Shown: positions 8,715-17,833, counted from the stretch's first letter. The stretch: 64,000 bases of DNA from Rhodococcus aetherivorans (GCF_011058165.1 NZ_JAALEG010000005.1:62001-126000); one strand, 5' to 3'. Notes: generated from the sequence alone by a model not told the origin. Program-made: numbers and translations.

Positions 8715-9464
8715 TCACAGCAGCCCCGACAGGCGTGCCGAGCCGTCGAAGAGGAACCGCACGAGCACCGCGTCGTCCGGGGTGACCCGCGACGCCGACC
8801 CCTGCAGGTAGAGGCCGCCGACGACGAACGCCGAACGGTCCCGGATCGGCACCGCCAGCGCGGCCCGCCCGGTCCGGCACTCCTCGCCCTCGTACGCGTA
8901 GCCCGCGGCGGCGACGGCGCGCAGTTCCTCGGCGAGGACGTCGTGGTCGCAGATCGTGTGGTCGGTCAGGCGCCGCAGTTCCGGATCGGGACGCACGTGC
9001 GGATGGTGCGCCAACATGAGCTTGCCGAGGGCGTTGGCGTGCAGGTTCTTCGCGAGCACGCCGATGGCGATGATCTCGTGGTCGGGGTCCTTGTCGACGA
9101 ACCGCAGCCGCCCGGCCGCGAACGAGGCGACGTGCACCCCGAATCGGGTGTGGGTGCGCAGCTCCTCGACGACGTCGTGCAGCGTCGGCGACGGGCTCGT
9201 CTCCGCGGCCGCCTGTGCGAGCTCCGCGGTGCGACGACCCAGCGCGAAGCCGGACAGGTCCGGCACGCGGACGAGGAATCCGTCGGCCACGAGCAGGTTG
9301 AGCATGCGGTACGCGGTGGTCGGCGGCACCCCGGCGAACCTGGCGATCTCCTTCGCGGACGTGCCGGGGCCGAGCTGCGCGACGGCCTCGAGCATCCCCA
9401 GCGCCTTCTGCACCGCGCGCGGCTGCTGTCCGCTGAAGTGCGAATCGTCCGCGTGCACGGACAC
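8715..9464 (-). CDS. IclR-family transcriptional regulator
   Basis: A 249-aa regulator. The N-terminal winged helix-turn-helix is at about residues 15-75 (AVQKALGMLEAVAQLGPGTS, then KEIARFAGVPPTTAYRMLNL). The C-terminal IclR effector domain runs from about 90 to 245 and includes LHANALGKLMLAHH and the usual YEGEECRTGRAALAVPI. GTG at 9462-9464 is chosen because translation upstream enters the permease stop region. It lies 8 bases after the APC permease on the same strand, so it likely controls that transporter. The effector is unknown. Confidence 0.85.
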   Translation of the reverse strand: MSVHADDSHFSGQQPRAVQKALGMLEAVAQLGPGTSAKEIARFAGVPPTTAYRMLNLLVADGFLVRVPDLSGFALGRRTAELAQAAAETSPSPTLHDVVEELRTHTRFGVHVASFAAGRLRFVDKDPDHEIIAIGVLAKNLHANALGKLMLAHHPHVRPDPELRRLTDHTICDHDVLAEELRAVAAAGYAYEGEECRTGRAALAVPIRDRSAFVVGGLYLQGSASRVTPDDAVLVRFLFDGSARLSGLL

Positions 9465-9472
9465 GTGCGCGG

Positions 9473-11017
9473 TCAACCCGGGTTCCCGTCGCGGGGACGG
9501 GCGTCGTCGCCGGGGTGCGGGACGTCCGGGAGGATGCGCCGCCGCCCGTCCGCGCCGATCACGAGGGTCCCCGCCCCGGGGAGGATGTCCCCGGTCTCGA
9601 CCGAGTCGAACGCACCGATGGTCGTCAGGCTGCCCGGCCGGACCCGGCGCAGCACGTACTGCCACACCGTGCCGGACGCCGCGACCGCCGAGAGTGTCGC
9701 GGGCACGACCCATACGCCGTGCGCGGTGCCGTCGACGGCGATGTAGCCGAGCAGGCCCATCCCCAGGACCGAGACGAACAGCGCGGCCGCCCGCGTCACG
9801 ACGGTGTGCTCGCCGATGCGGTGCAGGAATCGCAGCGACGCGACGGCCACCAGCGTGTAGGCCACGACGAGGCCGATCTCCACGACGCCGTCGAACGCCC
9901 CCGAATCCGCCCCCGCGAGGGACGCGTACAGGCACGCGCCGGCGAAACCCGCGGCGGTGAAGGAGAGCACGCCCACGTGCGGGGTGCGGAACCGGTCGTG
10001 GACACGGGCGAGGGCGCTCGGCAGCACCCGCTCGACACCCATCGAGTACAGCAGCCGGGAACCCGCCTGCGCGCACCCCAGGGTCGACGCGAGCCACGAG
10101 CACGTCATGCCCGCCTGCACCGCGAGCACCACACCGACGCTCGCGCCGGACGCCGTGCCGTCGAAGTACGCGCCGACGACGACGGCGCCGTGGCCGGACA
10201 ACGCGGCCCACGCCGCGAACACGAACAGGACACCGACGACGACGGGGGAGATCAGCACGGTGCGAGTGACGGTCACCAACGGCCGCTTGGCCTCCGGGCC
10301 GAAGAACGCGGCGCTCTCGAAGCCCGCCATCGACAGCACGGTGAGCATCGCGAGGAACGGCATGAGGCTCAGGGGTGCGTCCGGCAGTTCGGTGGTGGCC
10401 GTGCCCGCACCGGCCGGGGTGCCGAGCATGAGCGCCACGATGAGCACGAGCGAGCACGCCTCGACGAGCAGGATGGCGCGCGTCGCGAACCGCACGCCGC
10501 GCACCGTGATCACCGCGACGGCAACCGCGACGAGACCGATCGTGACCGACCACGGCGCGGCGCCGGGCACGTGCATGCCGAGCAGGTCTGCGATGCGGAG
10601 CAGGCTCTGTGCGGCCTGCGACATCACCGAGATCGAGATGCCGAGATAGCCCAGCAGCAGCGCCGCGCCCGTGGTGAGGGTCGCGCGGGCACTCAGGCCC
10701 TGGAACACGAAGCTGTAGAGCGACCCGGCCGCGGCGAGGCGCCGCGTGAACTGCGTGATGCACAGCGCCACCAGCACCACCACGGCGGTGGTCCCCGCGA
10801 TCGCCAGCAGACCGCCGACGCCCGGCCGGTGGGTCACCATCCACAGCGCGATGAACACCATCCCGGTGGCCGGCGCGATCGTCGACAGGGACTGGCCGAG
10901 CAGATCGATCGGGGTGAGCTGACGGCGGCCGAGGGCGCGCAGCGGCGAATACACCGGATCCCGATGGGTTTCGGCGTCCCGTGAGCGGGCAATCGCGGCC
11001 CGGAGTGCGGTTGTCAC
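9473..11017 (-). CDS. APC-family amino acid/amine permease
   Basis: Polytopic inner-membrane transporter of about 514 aa with roughly 12 hydrophobic segments. The first, LGQSLSTIAPATGMVFIALW, matches the APC helix-1 region, and GFESAAFFGPEAKRP marks the conserved helix-6 to loop segment. A hydrophilic 45-residue C-terminal tail carries VIGADGRRRILPD. GTG 11017 is preferred because GGGAT lies about 9 bases upstream; a GTG at 11065 is also open. The substrate is not readable. The position divergent from an amine dehydrogenase operon makes an amine or amino acid plausible (inference). Confidence 0.8.
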   Translation of the reverse strand: MTTALRAAIARSRDAETHRDPVYSPLRALGRRQLTPIDLLGQSLSTIAPATGMVFIALWMVTHRPGVGGLLAIAGTTAVVVLVALCITQFTRRLAAAGSLYSFVFQGLSARATLTTGAALLLGYLGISISVMSQAAQSLLRIADLLGMHVPGAAPWSVTIGLVAVAVAVITVRGVRFATRAILLVEACSLVLIVALMLGTPAGAGTATTELPDAPLSLMPFLAMLTVLSMAGFESAAFFGPEAKRPLVTVTRTVLISPVVVGVLFVFAAWAALSGHGAVVVGAYFDGTASGASVGVVLAVQAGMTCSWLASTLGCAQAGSRLLYSMGVERVLPSALARVHDRFRTPHVGVLSFTAAGFAGACLYASLAGADSGAFDGVVEIGLVVAYTLVAVASLRFLHRIGEHTVVTRAAALFVSVLGMGLLGYIAVDGTAHGVWVVPATLSAVAASGTVWQYVLRRVRPGSLTTIGAFDSVETGDILPGAGTLVIGADGRRRILPDVPHPGDDARPRDGNPG

Positions 11018-11392
11018 GATCGTCGTATCCCGTCTGTGCGTCCGTGCAGCCGGCGGTGCCGGCACCTCGGGCGGTGAAACGCCTCAGGGCGAGGGACAAC
11101 GTAGCGCCGCGGTGTTACGCGACGGTTACCTCCGCGAACGACATGTGGACGGCAAGTGGGAATCCGCCCGACGCGGCGCTGTGGCCCGCGCCACCGCACG
11201 GCCCCGTGCCCCGTGCGGACACGGTCCCCCGAGCGCCGGAGACCGTGTCCCACCTGCAGTGTCCGCATGGGGCGCGCCGCCACGGCCGGTTCCACTCGCG
11301 GTGCCCCCGGACGTTTCCCCGACGACCCGTTCGCGACGCATCCGGTGCGCACGATTGACCGGCACGATCACTCGACTGCGAAGGGGACGACC
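11018..11392. other. 375-base divergent promoter region upstream of the mau-type operon
   Basis: No credible gene lies here. The main structure is a perfect inverted repeat GGACACGGTC (11217-11226) and GACCGTGTCC (11241-11250) with a 14-base spacer, able to act as an operator or hairpin. AAGGGG at 11381-11386 is the ribosome binding site for mauE. I cannot pick a confident -10/-35 pair. Confidence 0.5.
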
Positions 11393-11983
11393 ATGATCTG
11401 GGCGGTGGTTGCGGCGCTCGTCGGCGGGACGTTGTTGCTCGCCGGGGTGCCGAAGGCCGGCGATCACGAGGGGCTGCTGCGCGCCGTCCGCGGCTATCGG
11501 CTGCTGCCGCCCGTGTTGGAACGGGCGGTCGCGCGGGTGTTGCCCGCCGCGGAGATCGCCGTGGGTGCCCTGCTGGTGCTCGGCGTCGCCGGCAGTGCCG
11601 CCGCGGCTGTCGCGGCGGTGCTGTTCCTCGGCTTCTTCGTCGGTCTCACCGTGAACCTCGCGCGGGGCCGGCGCGAGCTCGACTGCGGCTGCTTCGCGTT
11701 CGGCGGCCACGGCGAGGCACCGCGCATCGGCTGGTTCCACTCCGTGCGGGCCGGTGCGTTCGCCGCCGCGTCGATCGTGCTGGCCCTCACCGGACCCGCG
11801 ACGATCGCCGCGCTCCAGCAGATGGCGGCAATCGCGCTCGCGGCGCTCGCGCTCGCCGCCGGGCTCGCGGTGGCCCAGTTGCGCTCCGTGGTCCACGTCG
11901 GGCGCCGGCCCGTCGACGAGCACCTGACCGGCGCGTCCATCGAACTGCGCGCGGTCTCTGCCGTGTCGCGCTACGGGGCCTGA
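11393..11983 (+). CDS. mauE: MauE-type membrane protein for amine dehydrogenase maturation
   Basis: A 196-aa protein with about five hydrophobic segments and, in the loop after residue 90, RGRRELDCGCFAFGG with Cys98-Gly-Cys100, the usual MauE loop motif. MauE together with MauD is needed for export, folding and disulfide formation of the cysteine-rich light chain of methylamine dehydrogenase. ATG 11393 follows AAGGGG by 6 bases. It opens the operon, 40 bases before mauD. The C-terminal 30 residues are polar and probably cytoplasmic. Confidence 0.85.
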   Translation: MIWAVVAALVGGTLLLAGVPKAGDHEGLLRAVRGYRLLPPVLERAVARVLPAAEIAVGALLVLGVAGSAAAAVAAVLFLGFFVGLTVNLARGRRELDCGCFAFGGHGEAPRIGWFHSVRAGAFAAASIVLALTGPATIAALQQMAAIALAALALAAGLAVAQLRSVVHVGRRPVDEHLTGASIELRAVSAVSRYGA

Positions 11984-12023
11984 AACCATTTCTTCCACAA
12001 CATTTTCCGAGACAGGACGACAG

Positions 12024-12638
12024 ATGGACACCATATTTCTCGTTGCGATCATCGTGCTGGTGGTGGCGGTCGCCGTGTTGTTCCTGATGGTGCTCGCGCT
12101 GGCCCGCGAGATCGGCCGGGTGCAGGTCCGGCTCGGCCCCCTCGGGGCCCGCATGATGGACACCGGTCCGAAGATCGAGCAGGCCGGCCCGTCCTTCCGG
12201 GGCCTCACCGACCATGTGGGCCGCACCGTCGGCGTCGGCGGCCACCGCGACAGGCCGCAGCTGCTGCTGTTCACGGCGCCCACCTGTTCCACCTGCAAGA
12301 GCCTGCTGCCCGGCATCCGGGCGATGGCCAAGGCGGAGAAGGACCTCGACGTCGTGATCGTCTCCGACGGCACACCGGAGGAACACCGGCAGTTCCTCGC
12401 CGGCAGCAACATCGGCACCGAACTGAGCTACGTCGACGGCCGCGACGTCGGCATCGCCTACCAGGTCGGCACCACCCCCTACGGGGTGATCCTCGACGAG
12501 CACGGCAGGATCCGCGCCAAGGGGCTGTGCAACCACATGGCCCAGGTCGAGAGCCTGCTCAACGCCCTCGAGACCGGCACCCCGTCGCTGCAGCACCTGC
12601 ACGAACAGGCCAAGGCCCGCGCCGCCGCGAGCGCCTGA
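12024..12638 (+). CDS. mauD: MauD-type membrane-anchored thioredoxin-like protein
   Basis: A 204-aa protein with a single N-terminal membrane helix (residues 3-27) and an exported thioredoxin-like domain. The redox motif is Cys88-Ser-Thr-Cys91 in LLFTAPTCSTCKSLLP, and cis-Pro is in GTTPYGVILDE. MauD proteins are proposed to form or isomerise the many disulfides of the light chain. It sits between mauE and the light-chain gene in the usual E-D-A order. The gap to the next gene is 44 bases. Confidence 0.9.
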   Translation: MDTIFLVAIIVLVVAVAVLFLMVLALAREIGRVQVRLGPLGARMMDTGPKIEQAGPSFRGLTDHVGRTVGVGGHRDRPQLLLFTAPTCSTCKSLLPGIRAMAKAEKDLDVVIVSDGTPEEHRQFLAGSNIGTELSYVDGRDVGIAYQVGTTPYGVILDEHGRIRAKGLCNHMAQVESLLNALETGTPSLQHLHEQAKARAAASA

Positions 12639-12682
12639 ATCCCGCCTTCCCCCTGGACGAACGGAGAGATGCGTTGGAAGAG

Positions 12683-13345
12683 ATGTACGAGAACCGGTAT
12701 CCGGTCGACGAGGAGACCGTCAAGGAACAAGCCGCCTGGATGGCCGGCAAGGGCGGCTCGTTCATGAGCCGGACCGGACGCCGGATGTCGGAACAGGTGT
12801 CGCGCCGCTCGATGATCAGCCGCCTCGGCCGCTGGACGATGGGCGTGTCGGGGGTGGCGCTCATCAGTTCGCTTCCGGTGACGCGCACCGCGTTCGCGCA
12901 GGAACCCGCCCCCGAGCCCGGCCCGGAACCGCTCGTGCCCGTGTACGACGGCAAGGATCCCGCCGAGTGCGAGTACTGGCGCTGGTGCAACATGGACGGC
13001 ACCTCCTGCGCTGCCTGCAACGGAGGCGGAGTGACCACGTGCGCGCCGGGCAGCAAGCCGGGCGCCGAATTCTGGGTGGGCTGCTGCACCAACCCCGACA
13101 CCGGCAAGACCTACCTGATCGCCTACTACGACTGCTGCGGCGCCCCGTCGTGCTCCAACGCCTTCTGCGGCGAGCCCGACATGCAGGCCGTCATGTACAA
13201 CCCGGTCTCGGGCAGCTACGACCAGGAGATCATCTGGTGCGTGTCCGACGAATCCCAGTCGTACACCTGCACCATGGCCCCCATCATCGGCGAGGACTGC
13301 CAGGCCCGTCCCGCCGACCGCCCGAAGGTCGGTGCCGGATCATGA
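12683..13345 (+). CDS. mauA: TTQ amine dehydrogenase light (beta) chain
   Basis: A 220-aa precursor. The twin-arginine motif SRRSMIS (40-46) and hydrophobic core to AFAQ (about 70-73) mark Tat export in the folded state. The mature part has 14 Cys (96, 102, 109, 112, 120, 134, 135, 151, 152, 157, 162, 186, 196, 206), the spacing expected of the disulfide-knotted methylamine or aromatic amine dehydrogenase beta chain. Trp131 (GAEFWVGCC) and Trp185 (QEIIWCVSD) sit at the two positions that become tryptophan tryptophylquinone. ATG 12683 is used; TTG 12674 has better-spaced GGAGAG (12663-12668) and would add three residues. The stop overlaps the heavy-chain start. Confidence 0.88.
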   Translation: MYENRYPVDEETVKEQAAWMAGKGGSFMSRTGRRMSEQVSRRSMISRLGRWTMGVSGVALISSLPVTRTAFAQEPAPEPGPEPLVPVYDGKDPAECEYWRWCNMDGTSCAACNGGGVTTCAPGSKPGAEFWVGCCTNPDTGKTYLIAYYDCCGAPSCSNAFCGEPDMQAVMYNPVSGSYDQEIIWCVSDESQSYTCTMAPIIGEDCQARPADRPKVGAGS

Positions 13346-14655
13346 CATCGCGTTCCCGCCGCCTCGTGCGTCCCGCCGCGGCCGTCGTTCCGCTCGCGCT
13401 GCTCGTCACCCTCACCGGTTGCGGCTCGTCCGGCGACGACGCGAACACCGCCGGCGACATCACCTATCCCACCGTCGAATTCAGCACCCCCGGCGAGGGC
13501 ATCTCGCTCGGCCACGACGACCAGGAGATCGGCGACACCATCCCCGAACCGCTGCACGTCGCCGAGATCGACCCCATCCGACGTGACCAGCTCGTCGCCG
13601 TGGCAGGCGGATTCGGCAAGCTCGAGCTCGGCGTCAACGTCCTCGACCCGAAGACGGGCGTCGCCGGCAGCCGCATCGTCGTCGGCCCCGGCATCTGGGA
13701 CCCCGTGATCCACGGCTTCGTCGGCGAGACCCCGTCCGATCCGGCCGTTCTCGCCGCCGAGGTGTGGCGCCCCCGCGGCTCGCGGGGGGCCGCGGACTTC
13801 ACCGTCAGCACCTACTCCGGGAATCTGCTCGAGCCGGCCGAGGCGCTGCTGCCCGACGTCGCGCGCGTGCACTCGCGGCCCGGTTCCAACGCGGTCACCT
13901 CCGACGGGCGGTACTTCGTCACGTGGGACGACGGGCTCTACGGCGTCCGCGTCGTGGACCTCGAGACGAAGCAGCAGAGCGGGGCCGTGCAGATCGTCGG
14001 CTGCGGACCGTTCACCTGGACCGTGGACCACGAGATCTACAGCGTGTGCGAGGAGACCGGCGAGCTGATCCGGATCTCCGTCGGCGACGACGGCGTGCCG
14101 GCCGAGACCGCCCGGGCGAAGGTGCTGCCGGAGGACTTCGTCAGCGCCCGGAAGGTCGGGTGGGCCGCCGAGGCGCGCAAGGCCCTGCTGGTCGGGGAGA
14201 ACGGCGACGTGTACGTCTTCGACTTCTCGAACGGCCTGCCGCAGGGCGCGGTGACGCCGATCGGCAACGCCGGTCAGCCCGACGGGCGGTTCGCGAGCGA
14301 CGTCATCGACAACACCGGCACCCGGATCGCGATCGCCTACACCGACTCACCGATCCATCCCAGTTCCGCGCGCGGCGGCGACCTGACCCGCATCGTGCTG
14401 TCCGACGCCGCGAACCTCGCCCCGATCCGGTCGCTGAGCCTGCAGGACCTGGGGCTGACCGACATCGCGAGCATGGCGTTCTCCGTCGACGGCGCGACGT
14501 TCTACGTCCTCGGTGGCAATCCGGAGGGTCAGGGCGAGGCGGCACAGCGCATCGTCGGGTTCGACGCCGCGACCGGGCAACAGGTCTCCTCGGCGGAGAT
14601 CAGCGGCAACGTCGAGGATTTCACCGACCTGCTCACCCCCGAGGTGATCGGATGA
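13342..14655 (+). CDS. mauB: Amine dehydrogenase heavy (alpha) chain-like beta-propeller lipoprotein
   Basis: A 437-aa exported protein with signal residues 1-26 and lipobox LTGC, so it should be anchored to the membrane, unlike soluble periplasmic MauB of Gram-negative bacteria. The body consists of repeated beta-blades; examples are GVNVLDPKTG, SDGRYFVTWDDGLYGVRVVD, GENGDVYVFDFSNG and FSVDGATFYVLGGNPEGQGE, as in seven-bladed MADH heavy chains. It overlaps mauA by four bases (ATGA) and the oxidase gene in the same way. Assignment depends on context plus propeller pattern; overall similarity to proteobacterial MauB appears modest. Confidence 0.75.
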   Translation: MTSRSRRLVRPAAAVVPLALLVTLTGCGSSGDDANTAGDITYPTVEFSTPGEGISLGHDDQEIGDTIPEPLHVAEIDPIRRDQLVAVAGGFGKLELGVNVLDPKTGVAGSRIVVGPGIWDPVIHGFVGETPSDPAVLAAEVWRPRGSRGAADFTVSTYSGNLLEPAEALLPDVARVHSRPGSNAVTSDGRYFVTWDDGLYGVRVVDLETKQQSGAVQIVGCGPFTWTVDHEIYSVCEETGELIRISVGDDGVPAETARAKVLPEDFVSARKVGWAAEARKALLVGENGDVYVFDFSNGLPQGAVTPIGNAGQPDGRFASDVIDNTGTRIAIAYTDSPIHPSSARGGDLTRIVLSDAANLAPIRSLSLQDLGLTDIASMAFSVDGATFYVLGGNPEGQGEAAQRIVGFDAATGQQVSSAEISGNVEDFTDLLTPEVIG

Positions 14656-16265
14656 GACAACCCGACAACGGGTTGGGCCGGCGCCGATTCCTCGCCCTGG
14701 GCTCCCTCGGAGCCGGGGCGCTGGGAATGAGCGCGCTCGGGTTCGGTGCCGCCGGCTGCGCTACCGCATCGTCCGGTACGCAGCCGGCGGCCGCCGGCTC
14801 GGACACACGATCGGCGGCGTCCGATCTCGACTACATTTCCCCGGCCGATCCGGAGATCGCCGCCGCCGAGGCCGCCCGCGGGTGGAACGGCACCGTGGCG
14901 TCGTTCGCGCTCGCCGCCGGATTCTCCACCGTCGACCTGGGCGGACGCCTGGTCGACACCTGGACCTACGGCGGGCACGCCGTCGCCCCGGAACTGCGGG
15001 TACGCAAGGGCGACCGGCTCGACGCCGTGGTGCGCAACGACCTGGACGCCGACACCACGCTCCACTGGCACGGCATCCGGATCCGCAACGACATGGACGG
15101 CGCAGCGCCCGTCACCCAGGCGGCGATCGCACCGGGCACGACGTTCGACTACAGCTTCGTCGTCCCGGACCCCGGCACCCACTGGTACCACTCGCACAGC
15201 GGCCTGCAGGCCGACCGCGGCCTGTTCGGGGCCCTGATCGTGGAGGACCCCGACGACCGCACCGGCGCCGACGCCGACGCCGTCCTGGTCCTCGACGACT
15301 GGGTCGACGGCCTGGGCACCACGCCCGACGCCGTGCTCGCGGCGCTCAACCCCGCGATCTCCGGCGGTCACGGCGGCCACGGCGGGGGTGCGGCACCCGG
15401 CGCACACCCGGCCGGCGACACGGACGTCGCCCGGCGGCTGGTGAGCGCCGGGCACGGCGACTCCGCGCCCCTCGGCGGGATGACCCAGCACATCGCGTAT
15501 CCGTTGCACCTGATCAACGGTCGTCCTCCGAATGATCCCGCCCCGGTCGTCGCCGCGGCGGGACAGCGGTTGCGGCTGCGGATCGTCAACGCGGCGGCGG
15601 AGACCCCGTACCGGTTCGCGGTGGCCGGGCACGAACTCACGATCGTCGCGGCGGACGGCTTCGACGTGCAGCCCACCGTCGCCGACACGATCGTCGTCGG
15701 AATGGCGCAACGCTACGACGTCCTCGTCACCGTGAAGTCGGGCGTGTGGCCGATCGTCGCGAAGGTCGAAGGGCGGCAAGGGTATGCCTCGACGGTGCTG
15801 CGCACCCCGGATGCGGTGCCGATGGCCGACGCCGACGTGGGCGATGCGATCCCCGAACTCGGCGGCCGGCTCGTCGCGGAGAACGCGTTGCGGCCTGCCG
15901 ACACCGTGCGGCTCGACCCGCGCGAGCCCGACCGGGACTACCGGATCGATCTGATCCAGGCAGGGGACCGCTACGTGTGGGGCATGGTCGGCGCCGACGC
16001 CGGCCGCCTCGTCATGAAACAGGGTGAACGCGTGCGGATCACGATGAAGAACTCGTCCACCATGTGGCACCCCATGCACACGCACGGACACACCTTCGCG
16101 ATCGGCGCGTACGGCGGGTTGCGCCGCGACACGGTCAACGTGCTGCCCGGCACCGAACTTGCGATCGAATTCGATGCCGACAATCCGGGCGAATGGATGT
16201 TCCACTGCCACAACGCCTACCACTTCGAAGCCGGCATGACCGCGAACCTGCGGTACATCCGATGA
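14652..16265 (+). CDS. Multicopper oxidase (Tat lipoprotein) in the amine dehydrogenase operon
   Basis: A 537-aa laccase-type oxidase. GRRRFLALGSL (9-19) is a Tat motif and AAGC with Cys36 is a lipobox. All four copper motifs are intact: HWHG (138-141), HWYHSH (177-182), HPMHTH (473-478) and HCHNAYHFEAGM (518-529), giving type 1 ligands His473, Cys519, His524 and probably Met529, plus the trinuclear cluster His set. A Gly/His stretch (GGHGGHGGG, near 238) lies in a loop. Its start overlaps mauB and two cupredoxin genes follow. Likely roles are terminal oxidase for electrons from the dehydrogenase, or cofactor maturation in place of MauG; both are inference. Confidence 0.85.
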   Translation: MRQPDNGLGRRRFLALGSLGAGALGMSALGFGAAGCATASSGTQPAAAGSDTRSAASDLDYISPADPEIAAAEAARGWNGTVASFALAAGFSTVDLGGRLVDTWTYGGHAVAPELRVRKGDRLDAVVRNDLDADTTLHWHGIRIRNDMDGAAPVTQAAIAPGTTFDYSFVVPDPGTHWYHSHSGLQADRGLFGALIVEDPDDRTGADADAVLVLDDWVDGLGTTPDAVLAALNPAISGGHGGHGGGAAPGAHPAGDTDVARRLVSAGHGDSAPLGGMTQHIAYPLHLINGRPPNDPAPVVAAAGQRLRLRIVNAAAETPYRFAVAGHELTIVAADGFDVQPTVADTIVVGMAQRYDVLVTVKSGVWPIVAKVEGRQGYASTVLRTPDAVPMADADVGDAIPELGGRLVAENALRPADTVRLDPREPDRDYRIDLIQAGDRYVWGMVGADAGRLVMKQGERVRITMKNSSTMWHPMHTHGHTFAIGAYGGLRRDTVNVLPGTELAIEFDADNPGEWMFHCHNAYHFEAGMTANLRYIR

Positions 16266-16276
16266 GAGGAATCGCC

Positions 16277-16621
16277 ATGAGAAGGTCCGTCACCCTGCTC
16301 GCCGGCCTGCTGACCGCGGCGAGCCTGTCCGCGTGCGGCAGCGCCGGAGGTTCGGCCGAACCGGCCGTCGTCGTGGAGGTGAGGAACATGGCCTACAACC
16401 CGGAGTCGGTGACGATCGAGAAGGGGCAGACCGTCGAATGGCGATTCGACGACGGCGGACTGCCGCACGACGTCGTGGGCGAGGGCCCCCTCGAGGGGGA
16501 GCTGAAGAGTGAACTCCTCACCGAGGGAACGTATTCCTACACCTTCGACGAAGCCGGCACGTTCACCTATCACTGCACGCCGCACCCGATGATGGTCGGC
16601 ACCGTGATCGTCCGGGAATGA
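16277..16621 (+). CDS. Plastocyanin/amicyanin-like cupredoxin lipoprotein 1
   Basis: A 114-aa lipoprotein (lipobox LSAC, Cys20). The cupredoxin domain follows, with type 1 copper ligands His64 (GLPHDVV), Cys100, His103 and Met105 or 106 (TYHCTPHPMM). Amicyanin is the natural electron acceptor of methylamine dehydrogenase, and this small blue copper protein fits that role. ATG 16277 has AGAGGA six bases upstream; an ATG at 16262 overlapping the oxidase stop would add five residues. The 3' end overlaps the second cupredoxin. Confidence 0.85.
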   Translation: MRRSVTLLAGLLTAASLSACGSAGGSAEPAVVVEVRNMAYNPESVTIEKGQTVEWRFDDGGLPHDVVGEGPLEGELKSELLTEGTYSYTFDEAGTFTYHCTPHPMMVGTVIVRE

Positions 16622-16950
16622 CCCGGCGGCCGGGGTGGGCTGCGGCCCTGCTGCTTCCGCTCGTCACGGCCTGCGGCCCGTCCGAGCGGCCCCCGGACGC
16701 GGTGGTGGTCGTCAGCAACGTCCACTTCGCTCCGCCCGACGTGACCGTGCCGGCCGGCGGCACCGTCGAATGGCGGTTCGAGGACGGCGGGGTGCTGCAC
16801 CAGGTCACGTCGGAGGGGCGGTTCGACAGCGGGATCACCGGGGGAGGCACGTACTCCCACACCTTCGACGAACCGGGAACCTACGAGTACACCTGCTCGG
16901 TCCACCGGTACATGACCGGCACCGTCACCGTCACCGTCACCGAATCCTGA
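16618..16950 (+). CDS. Plastocyanin/amicyanin-like cupredoxin lipoprotein 2
   Basis: A 110-aa lipoprotein (lipobox VTAC, Cys19) with ligands His61, Cys93, His96 and Met99 (YTCSVHRYM). It is clearly a paralogue of the preceding protein: both have GxTVEWRFxDGG and TYSxTFDExGT. The Cys-x2-His-x2-Met ligand loop here has Arg-Tyr where the first has Pro, which should tune the copper potential. Two cupredoxins in series suggest a relay from dehydrogenase to oxidase. The start overlaps the first cupredoxin stop (ATGA). Confidence 0.85.
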   Translation: MTRRPGWAAALLLPLVTACGPSERPPDAVVVVSNVHFAPPDVTVPAGGTVEWRFEDGGVLHQVTSEGRFDSGITGGGTYSHTFDEPGTYEYTCSVHRYMTGTVTVTVTES

Positions 16951-16996
16951 ACCAGTCGTCCGAATCCGGAGAACACCGACCCCCTTGGAGGAAGTC

Positions 16997-17833
16997 ATGA
17001 CAGCAGTACTCACGCACGAGCCGCTGACGACGGACGTGCCGGACATCCGTCCCACCCTGCAGAAGGCCGTGCCGTCGCGCACCCGGGCGGCGCTGATCGC
17101 CGCCGCCGGCGTCGCCGGTGCCGGGGCGGCGGCGCTCCTCACGCCGTCGGGACCCGCCGCGACGACCGCCGCGGTCGTGGGTGCCGGCGCCGTCACCGCC
17201 CTGGCCGCGAACTGGTCGACGTGCGGCATGTCGGTCGCCGGCGTCGTCGCGGCTCCGAAGCAGCCCGACCGCGCGGGCTCGTCGACGCCGGTGCGCCGGC
17301 TCGGCTGGCACGCGCTCGGGTCGGTCGCGACCGGCGCCCCCACCGGTGCGCTCGTCGGCGCGCTCGGTGCGCTCGTCGCCGGATCCGTCCCGGTGACGTG
17401 GGCGCTCGTCGCGTGGGGCGTCGTCGCGTTCGCCTACGGTCTGCACGAGCTGGGTCTGGTGACGCTGCCGACGCCGATGCGCCGCCGGCAGCTGCCGCGG
17501 CACCTGCGCCGGTCGATGGCCCCGTGGAAGGTCTCGCTGCTCTTCGGCGCCATGATCGGACCCGGCTTCGTGATCTTCATCCGGTCGAGCGCGTACTACC
17601 TGCTGGTGCTCGGCGTCGCCGTGGTCGGCTCCCCGGCGCTCGGCGCCGCCCTGTTCACGCTCGTCTCGCTCGGCCGGTGCCTGCCGAGCCTGCTGGCGAT
17701 CCTGCACACCCGCGGCGGCGGGTCGATGCCGGGCTTCCTGTCGGCGATGTGCGTGGTCGACCGCCGCGTGCAGACGCTGACCGGCGCCGTGCTCGTCGCC
17801 CTCGGTGCGTTCGCGGTCGTCGCCGCACTCTGA
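16997..17833 (+). CDS. Polytopic membrane protein closing the mau-type operon (MauF/CcdA-like?)
   Basis: A 278-aa protein with about six to seven hydrophobic segments. NWSTCGMSVAG near residue 75 and LVSLGRCLPSLLAI near residue 225 place single cysteines at the starts of two helices, reminiscent of CcdA/DsbD-type transmembrane thiol carriers, to which MauF is related. If so it would supply reducing or oxidising equivalents for light-chain disulfides or copper loading. ATG 16997 follows GGAGGA (16987-16992). A 47-base gap separates it from cupredoxin 2. Family assignment is tentative; the location is the main support. Confidence 0.5.
   Translation: MTAVLTHEPLTTDVPDIRPTLQKAVPSRTRAALIAAAGVAGAGAAALLTPSGPAATTAAVVGAGAVTALAANWSTCGMSVAGVVAAPKQPDRAGSSTPVRRLGWHALGSVATGAPTGALVGALGALVAGSVPVTWALVAWGVVAFAYGLHELGLVTLPTPMRRRQLPRHLRRSMAPWKVSLLFGAMIGPGFVIFIRSSAYYLLVLGVAVVGSPALGAALFTLVSLGRCLPSLLAILHTRGGGSMPGFLSAMCVVDRRVQTLTGAVLVALGAFAVVAAL

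Follow-up and report, generated by a model that had tools for sequence, protein, structure and literature searches.

A conserved actinobacterial operon predicted to encode a TTQ amine dehydrogenase with a dedicated multicopper oxidase and two cupredoxins

The closest described systems are the mau operon of Paracoccus denitrificans, which has the order mauRFBEDACJGMN, and the aau-type operons, which consist of aauBEDA and the genes of two cytochromes c. Among their products, MauD, MauE and MauF have known roles in the folding of the light chain. No mauG gene is reportedly present in the aau cluster published for Alcaligenes faecalis. A 2021 review assigns methylamine dehydrogenase to Gram-negative bacteria and methylamine oxidase to Gram-positive ones (PMC8292978). 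The operon described here stands against this division, being a conserved, predicted TTQ system of Gram-positive Actinobacteria without a haem protein of its own. It appears to be an undescribed variant of TTQ amine dehydrogenase with an obligate multicopper oxidase: we found no description of an actinobacterial TTQ operon in the open-access literature, subscription papers being outside the scope of the search.

The window, a stretch of 64,000 nucleotides from Rhodococcus aetherivorans, contains eight genes on the same strand at positions 11393-17833, which encode MauE, MauD, the light chain, the heavy chain, a multicopper oxidase (MCO), two cupredoxins (Cup1 and Cup2) and MauF. They are listed here with the two genes that diverge from them:

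8715-9470, minus strand: IclR-type regulator, start unfixed; named by the appearance of its sequence, with a homologue at the same site in most related loci
9473-11065, minus strand: APC-family permease (PF00324), at the same site in most related loci
11393-11983, plus strand: MauE, membrane protein of light-chain disulphide maturation (PF07291, E 6e-23)
12024-12638, plus strand: MauD, membrane-anchored, thioredoxin fold (TIGR02661, E 2e-51)
12683-13345, plus strand: TTQ light chain, MauA (PF02975, E 1e-31; alignment to MADH/AADH)
13342-14655, plus strand: heavy chain, MauB, a divergent beta-propeller lipoprotein (hhalign E 1e-11; AF2 fold matches)
14652-16265, plus strand: three-domain MCO with Tat signal and lipobox (PF07732/PF00394/PF07731, E 1e-24 to 1e-37)
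16262-16621, plus strand: Cup1, amicyanin-like lipoprotein (TIGR02657, E 1.5e-15, below the cut-off)
16618-16950, plus strand: Cup2, lipoprotein (PF13473, E 9e-10)
16997-17833, plus strand: MauF homologue, polytopic membrane protein (hhalign to MauF)

The preliminary description of this DNA had named MauE, MauD, the light chain, the MCO and the two cupredoxins, and Pfam or NCBIfam matches recover all of them at the positions given there; the TIGR02661 score of MauD (174 bits) is below the curated cut-off of 188.6. The heavy chain (13342-14655) and MauF (16997-17833) were identified in addition. The former has no Pfam match and was assigned by profile comparison with MADH/AADH heavy chains (hhalign E 1e-11) and by its AF2 model (mean pLDDT 73), which matches the fold of the MADH heavy chain in the PDB with an E of 7e-17; the best 28 PDB fold matches are all MADH/AADH heavy chains, and the model thus points to a beta-propeller heavy chain of this type. 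The latter also lacks a Pfam match, and profile comparison relates it to MauF of Paracoccus and Methylobacterium (hhalign 99%, E 6.6e-18). Its initial naming as DUF2182, from appearance, was rejected on these two results.

ATGA overlaps occur at the four junctions MauA/MauB, MauB/MCO, MCO/Cup1 and Cup1/Cup2, and therefore the genes from MauA to Cup2 very likely form one translationally coupled operon. The downstream genes for a glutathione peroxidase, a nitroreductase, a deacetylase and an FAD dehydrogenase were considered as further parts and rejected, as they occur together only in the closest relative. The IclR-type regulator and the permease (8715-11065) are kept in Rhodococcus, Prescottella, Nocardia and Actinacidiphila; they are present at most related loci and missing beside the operon in Dietzia and Kineococcus. 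The permease is a probable transport partner of the operon, and the divergent pair gives a hint to the substrate.

The light chain is full length (220 aa) and starts with a Tat-like signal. The TTQ residues proposed earlier, Trp131 and Trp185, are placed exactly: they align with Trp57 and Trp108 of P. denitrificans, of which the catalytic Asp32 and Asp76 are also kept. The protein has 14 Cys, versus 12 in Paracoccus, the additional ones being located next to the Cys61 position and in the C-terminal tail, which may indicate a seventh disulphide in the actinobacterial proteins. A Cys pair directly follows the first TTQ Trp (WVGCC), and WxxCC is also found in Thermomicrobium. Both TTQ Trp and the 14 Cys are present in 54 of the 55 light chains, a count in which some genomes were entered twice, and the remaining one has a broken reading frame. 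The methylamine dehydrogenase equivalog TIGR02659 matches with 118.6 bits, below its curated cut-off of 196.85. A tree built from 26 mature light chains places the actinobacterial ones in a single clade (100/100) on a long branch, separate from the MADH pair and from the aau-type set. Because this tree contains few and short proteins, we used the coarse three-way split alone; by this split, the actinobacterial light chains form a third deep clade beside the methylamine and aromatic amine dehydrogenases. Together, the PF02975 fold, both TTQ Trp, the catalytic Asp and the propeller heavy chain identify the operon product, as predicted from the genes, as a TTQ amine dehydrogenase.

The overlapping genes for an oxidase and two cupredoxin lipoproteins, already noted in the preliminary description, are borne out by the ATGA overlaps, the copper ligands and the lipoboxes. 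The MCO keeps all ten His, the Cys and the axial Met copper ligands, and its four copper motifs are intact in 53/53 orthologues (some genomes counted twice). The type-1 site reads HCHxxxHxxxxM in every copy, with Met as the axial ligand throughout. Such a ligand is typical of low- or medium-potential type-1 sites, a rule of thumb by which the site would suit electron uptake from an amicyanin-like cupredoxin. For the MCO, the AF2 model reached a mean pLDDT of 54 and was left out of the analysis. Both cupredoxins match PF00127 (E 2e-13 and 4e-9), and the ligand pattern of Cup1 (His...CxxHxxM) is the amicyanin signature. Pattern searches found a lipobox on the heavy chain in 20/20 operons, a lipobox together with the copper ligands on Cup1 in the same number (20/20), and lipoboxes in nearly all MCO and Cup2 orthologues; the light chain and the MCO carry twin-arginine motifs. 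The whole redox set is therefore predicted to lie outside the membrane while being tethered to it. A CxxCH haem motif is absent from all products of the operon in the window, as had been reported, and from those of 19 homologous operons. Lipoboxes, Tat motifs, copper ligands and the missing CxxCH products agree with the all-copper, membrane-tethered set proposed at the outset.

Clear light chains were found in 44 of the 401 genomes of the window's taxonomic family, its own included, and in a sample of the phylum in its own genome only. Weak matches in three genomes (E ~1e-4 to 1e-3) were taken as chance; on inspection, one of these (G457) proved to have no mau genes nearby. Scanning 84,980 species genomes gave 36 loci, which we merged with 19 earlier loci and the window into 42 distinct loci whose contig reaches past the heavy chain. 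The genera with the operon are Rhodococcus, Prescottella, Nocardia, Dietzia, Corynebacterium sp., Kineococcus, Actinacidiphila and Microbacterium. The light chain, heavy chain, MCO and Cup1 occur together in 42/42 loci, MauF is present in all 41 with the region in view, and Cup2 is missing only in Actinacidiphila. Actinobacterial operons lacking the oxidase, which the preliminary description had named as evidence against its involvement, are absent from the 42 loci, where the MCO is an obligatory, dedicated member. Gene order is kept across genera down to 44-53% identity, and the conservation of the operon is thus, judged from these sequences, far beyond chance. Kineococcus sp. TRM81007 (L071, 7664-14169) has all eight genes in an altered order, in which MauF separates the light chain from the heavy chain.

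The MCO is also inherited together with the dehydrogenase, because the operon MCO of light-chain-positive genomes of the Rhodococcus group is 73-80% identical to that of the window (52% in Dietzia), versus 42-45% for the closest MCO in light-chain-negative genomes. A second close copy is lacking in most of the sampled genomes that carry the operon. The R. erythropolis group (L099 4697-7263, L042 15342-15999) has a second MCO, 62-63% identical to the operon MCO, with a cupredoxin. This pair, at a distance of ~5 kb from the TTQ operon, has an iron-siderophore-type binding protein and ABC exporters as neighbours and no dehydrogenase.

The search for a MauG elsewhere in the genome had been set beforehand as a check. 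The MauG/CCP family (PF03150) has no match in the window's own genome, in 45 further genomes of its taxonomic family (43 with a clear light chain, two with weak matches) or in seven genomes of Kineococcus, Actinacidiphila, Microbacterium, Corynebacterium sp. and Nocardia, i.e., in 53 genomes, nearly all with the light chain. The same search detects MauG on the mau plasmids of P. denitrificans and Methylobacterium. The family was found in 6 of 296 genomes of Actinomycetota and has no match in the window's class, and its absence is therefore usual in this class and not specific to the operon. In the window's genome, c-type cytochrome domains are confined to a tandem pair within a single ORF, which directly follows a gene similar to cytochrome c oxidase subunit III; this ORF is QcrC, the only c-type cytochrome of the host. 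Only one such tandem pair was found in 17 of 18 other operon-bearing genomes.

That TTQ operons depend on MauG was too strong a premise. In five aau-type proteobacterial plasmid records, PF03150 has no match on the whole plasmid, and among the aau-type operons inspected, only that of Chimaeribacter arupi has an MCO beside it. Hence, the absence of MauG alone does not demand an MCO.

Our favoured reading, to which we give an even chance, is that electrons pass from the amine through TTQ and a cupredoxin to the MCO and then to O2, the MCO being the terminal oxidase and TTQ being made without MauG. We infer both the direction of electron flow and the role as terminal oxidase. MauD, MauE and MauF would fold the light chain, as the roles of their homologues suggest, and the light chain would join the lipoprotein beta-propeller heavy chain outside the cytoplasmic membrane. 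TTQ would oxidise a primary amine to an aldehyde and ammonia, and the electrons would pass to the amicyanin-like Cup1, perhaps to Cup2, and on to the dedicated MCO, which would reduce O2 to water as the terminal oxidase of hosts without soluble cytochrome c. TTQ formation without MauG might involve a Cu/O2-dependent self-hydroxylation, with the MCO chain as the sink for the last oxidation steps. In favour of the terminal-oxidase role, the MCO and Cup1 accompany the dehydrogenase in 42/42 loci, even in the reshuffled one of Kineococcus. The MCO also occurs in two lineages where a route from soluble cytochrome c to an oxidase would be unavailable, which favours the same role: in the one, QcrC is the only c-type cytochrome, and in the other, the MCO of C. 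arupi is found in an Enterobacterales host, an argument drawn from one operon. Members of this order possess quinol oxidases and are not known to possess a cytochrome c oxidase. Besides electron transfer, the MCO could act in maturation, as the operon encodes no other strong oxidant.

The preliminary description had offered two mechanisms, of which the passage of electrons to O2 is the better supported; the replacement of MauG by the oxidase is possible and, given the Met axial ligand and the aau-type operons, not favoured. According to the latter, the MCO, alone or through a cupredoxin, would be a copper-based TTQ synthase, which we consider rather unlikely; the scheme in which it oxidises mono-hydroxy-Trp131 to give the Trp131-Trp185 cross-link, the second oxygen and the quinone is doubtful to the same degree. 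It would account for the conserved maturation genes E, D and F in an operon without MauG, for an MCO that is never missing while the MauG family is absent from the 53 genomes, and it is chemically plausible in that laccase-type enzymes oxidise phenol-like groups. The substrate of MauG is already a 7-hydroxy-Trp, the first hydroxylation being thought autocatalytic, and the autocatalytic first hydroxylation in LodA appears to be copper-dependent (PMC7876137). Yet MauG oxidises Trp at ~1 V (PMC6405878), versus the modest potential implied by a Met axial ligand, the aau-type operons lack MauG and, in most cases, a nearby MCO, and the cupredoxins would be redundant if maturation were the sole role.

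Alternatively, the cupredoxins might pass their electrons to the bcc-aa3 supercomplex, by way of QcrC or the CuA of CtaC, leaving copper handling to the MCO. This we hold to be improbable, and no less so the part in which the MCO oxidises Cu(I) or metallates the cupredoxins. The match to the copper-resistance CopA model TIGR01480 (249 bits, below the cut-off of 479), the His-rich loop GGHGGHGG and the related pair of MCO and cupredoxin (62-63%) that the R. erythropolis group carries next to a siderophore-type binding protein speak for copper handling, for which a strict one-to-one linkage to the dehydrogenase in eight genera would be unusual and the lack of a second close MCO in most operon-bearing genomes sampled unexpected. 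Finally, TTQ might be made by an unlinked enzyme (a flavin monooxygenase, a P450 or another) without the MCO. There is a precedent in the CTQ enzymes, whose maturation relies on the flavoproteins QhpG, LodB and GoxB (PMC7876137), but the tryptophan-halogenase-like flavoprotein family PF04820, taken as a proxy for a QhpG/LodB-like enzyme with unproven sensitivity for these, has no match in the window's genome and none in 6 of the 12 other genomes with the operon. We regard such an enzyme as very unlikely in this role; it is compatible with the MCO being the terminal oxidase.

The operon appears to represent a third lineage among the TTQ amine dehydrogenases, one that in Actinobacteria would be tethered to the outer side of the cytoplasmic membrane. 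It makes it testable whether, and by which oxidant, TTQ is formed without MauG, for which Rhodococcus species are convenient, being easily grown. The terminal-oxidase reading suggests that electrons take a short all-copper path from the amine to O2, located outside the membrane; if true, this path would conserve no energy, and the system would therefore serve nitrogen supply or detoxification. If the MCO did replace MauG, a protein-derived quinone cofactor would be made by a copper-based route.

Three-domain MCOs of the CopA/laccase type share with the operon MCO the four copper motifs and the Tat signal; the operon MCO differs in being a lipoprotein, in its co-inheritance with a TTQ dehydrogenase and in an identity of 42-45% to other actinobacterial MCOs. 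The megaplasmid of Thermomicrobium roseum (NC_011961.1, 6780-14197) carries two divergent TTQ-type light-chain ORFs, one of them unannotated and with the motifs SSWYMCC and NNWCG, several ORFs of ~400 aa of unassigned family that may encode heavy chains, and a MauE with a long N-terminal fusion; within 12 kb, neither MauG nor an MCO is annotated. The plasmid of C. arupi (NZ_CP119396.1, 4610-9926) has a TTQ operon directly followed by an MCO, as in the actinobacterial pairing, but with an aau-type light chain, two cytochromes c and an MCO of just 31% identity. It is the sole proteobacterial TTQ operon with an MCO among those inspected, and no TTQ operon was found in E. coli genomes.

The aau-type and the actinobacterial operons have in common the light chain, the heavy chain, MauE, MauD and the lack of MauG. 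Both have two small carriers downstream, which are monohaem cytochromes c in the former and cupredoxins in the latter; MauF is absent from the aau-type operons, which normally also have no MCO, whereas the actinobacterial operon has both. With its light chain outside the aau clade and without CxxCH carriers, the actinobacterial system does not belong to the aau type. The mau operon of P. denitrificans shares with it MauF, the heavy chain, MauE, MauD, the light chain and an amicyanin-like cupredoxin, as well as both TTQ Trp and both catalytic Asp. The light chains are ~35% identical, that of the Actinobacteria having 14 Cys and a C-terminal tail. Compared with mau, the actinobacterial operon has no MauG, MauJ, MauM or MauN and differs in gene order; it adds the MCO and a second cupredoxin, and its carriers and heavy chain are, unlike those of P. 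denitrificans, predicted lipoproteins.
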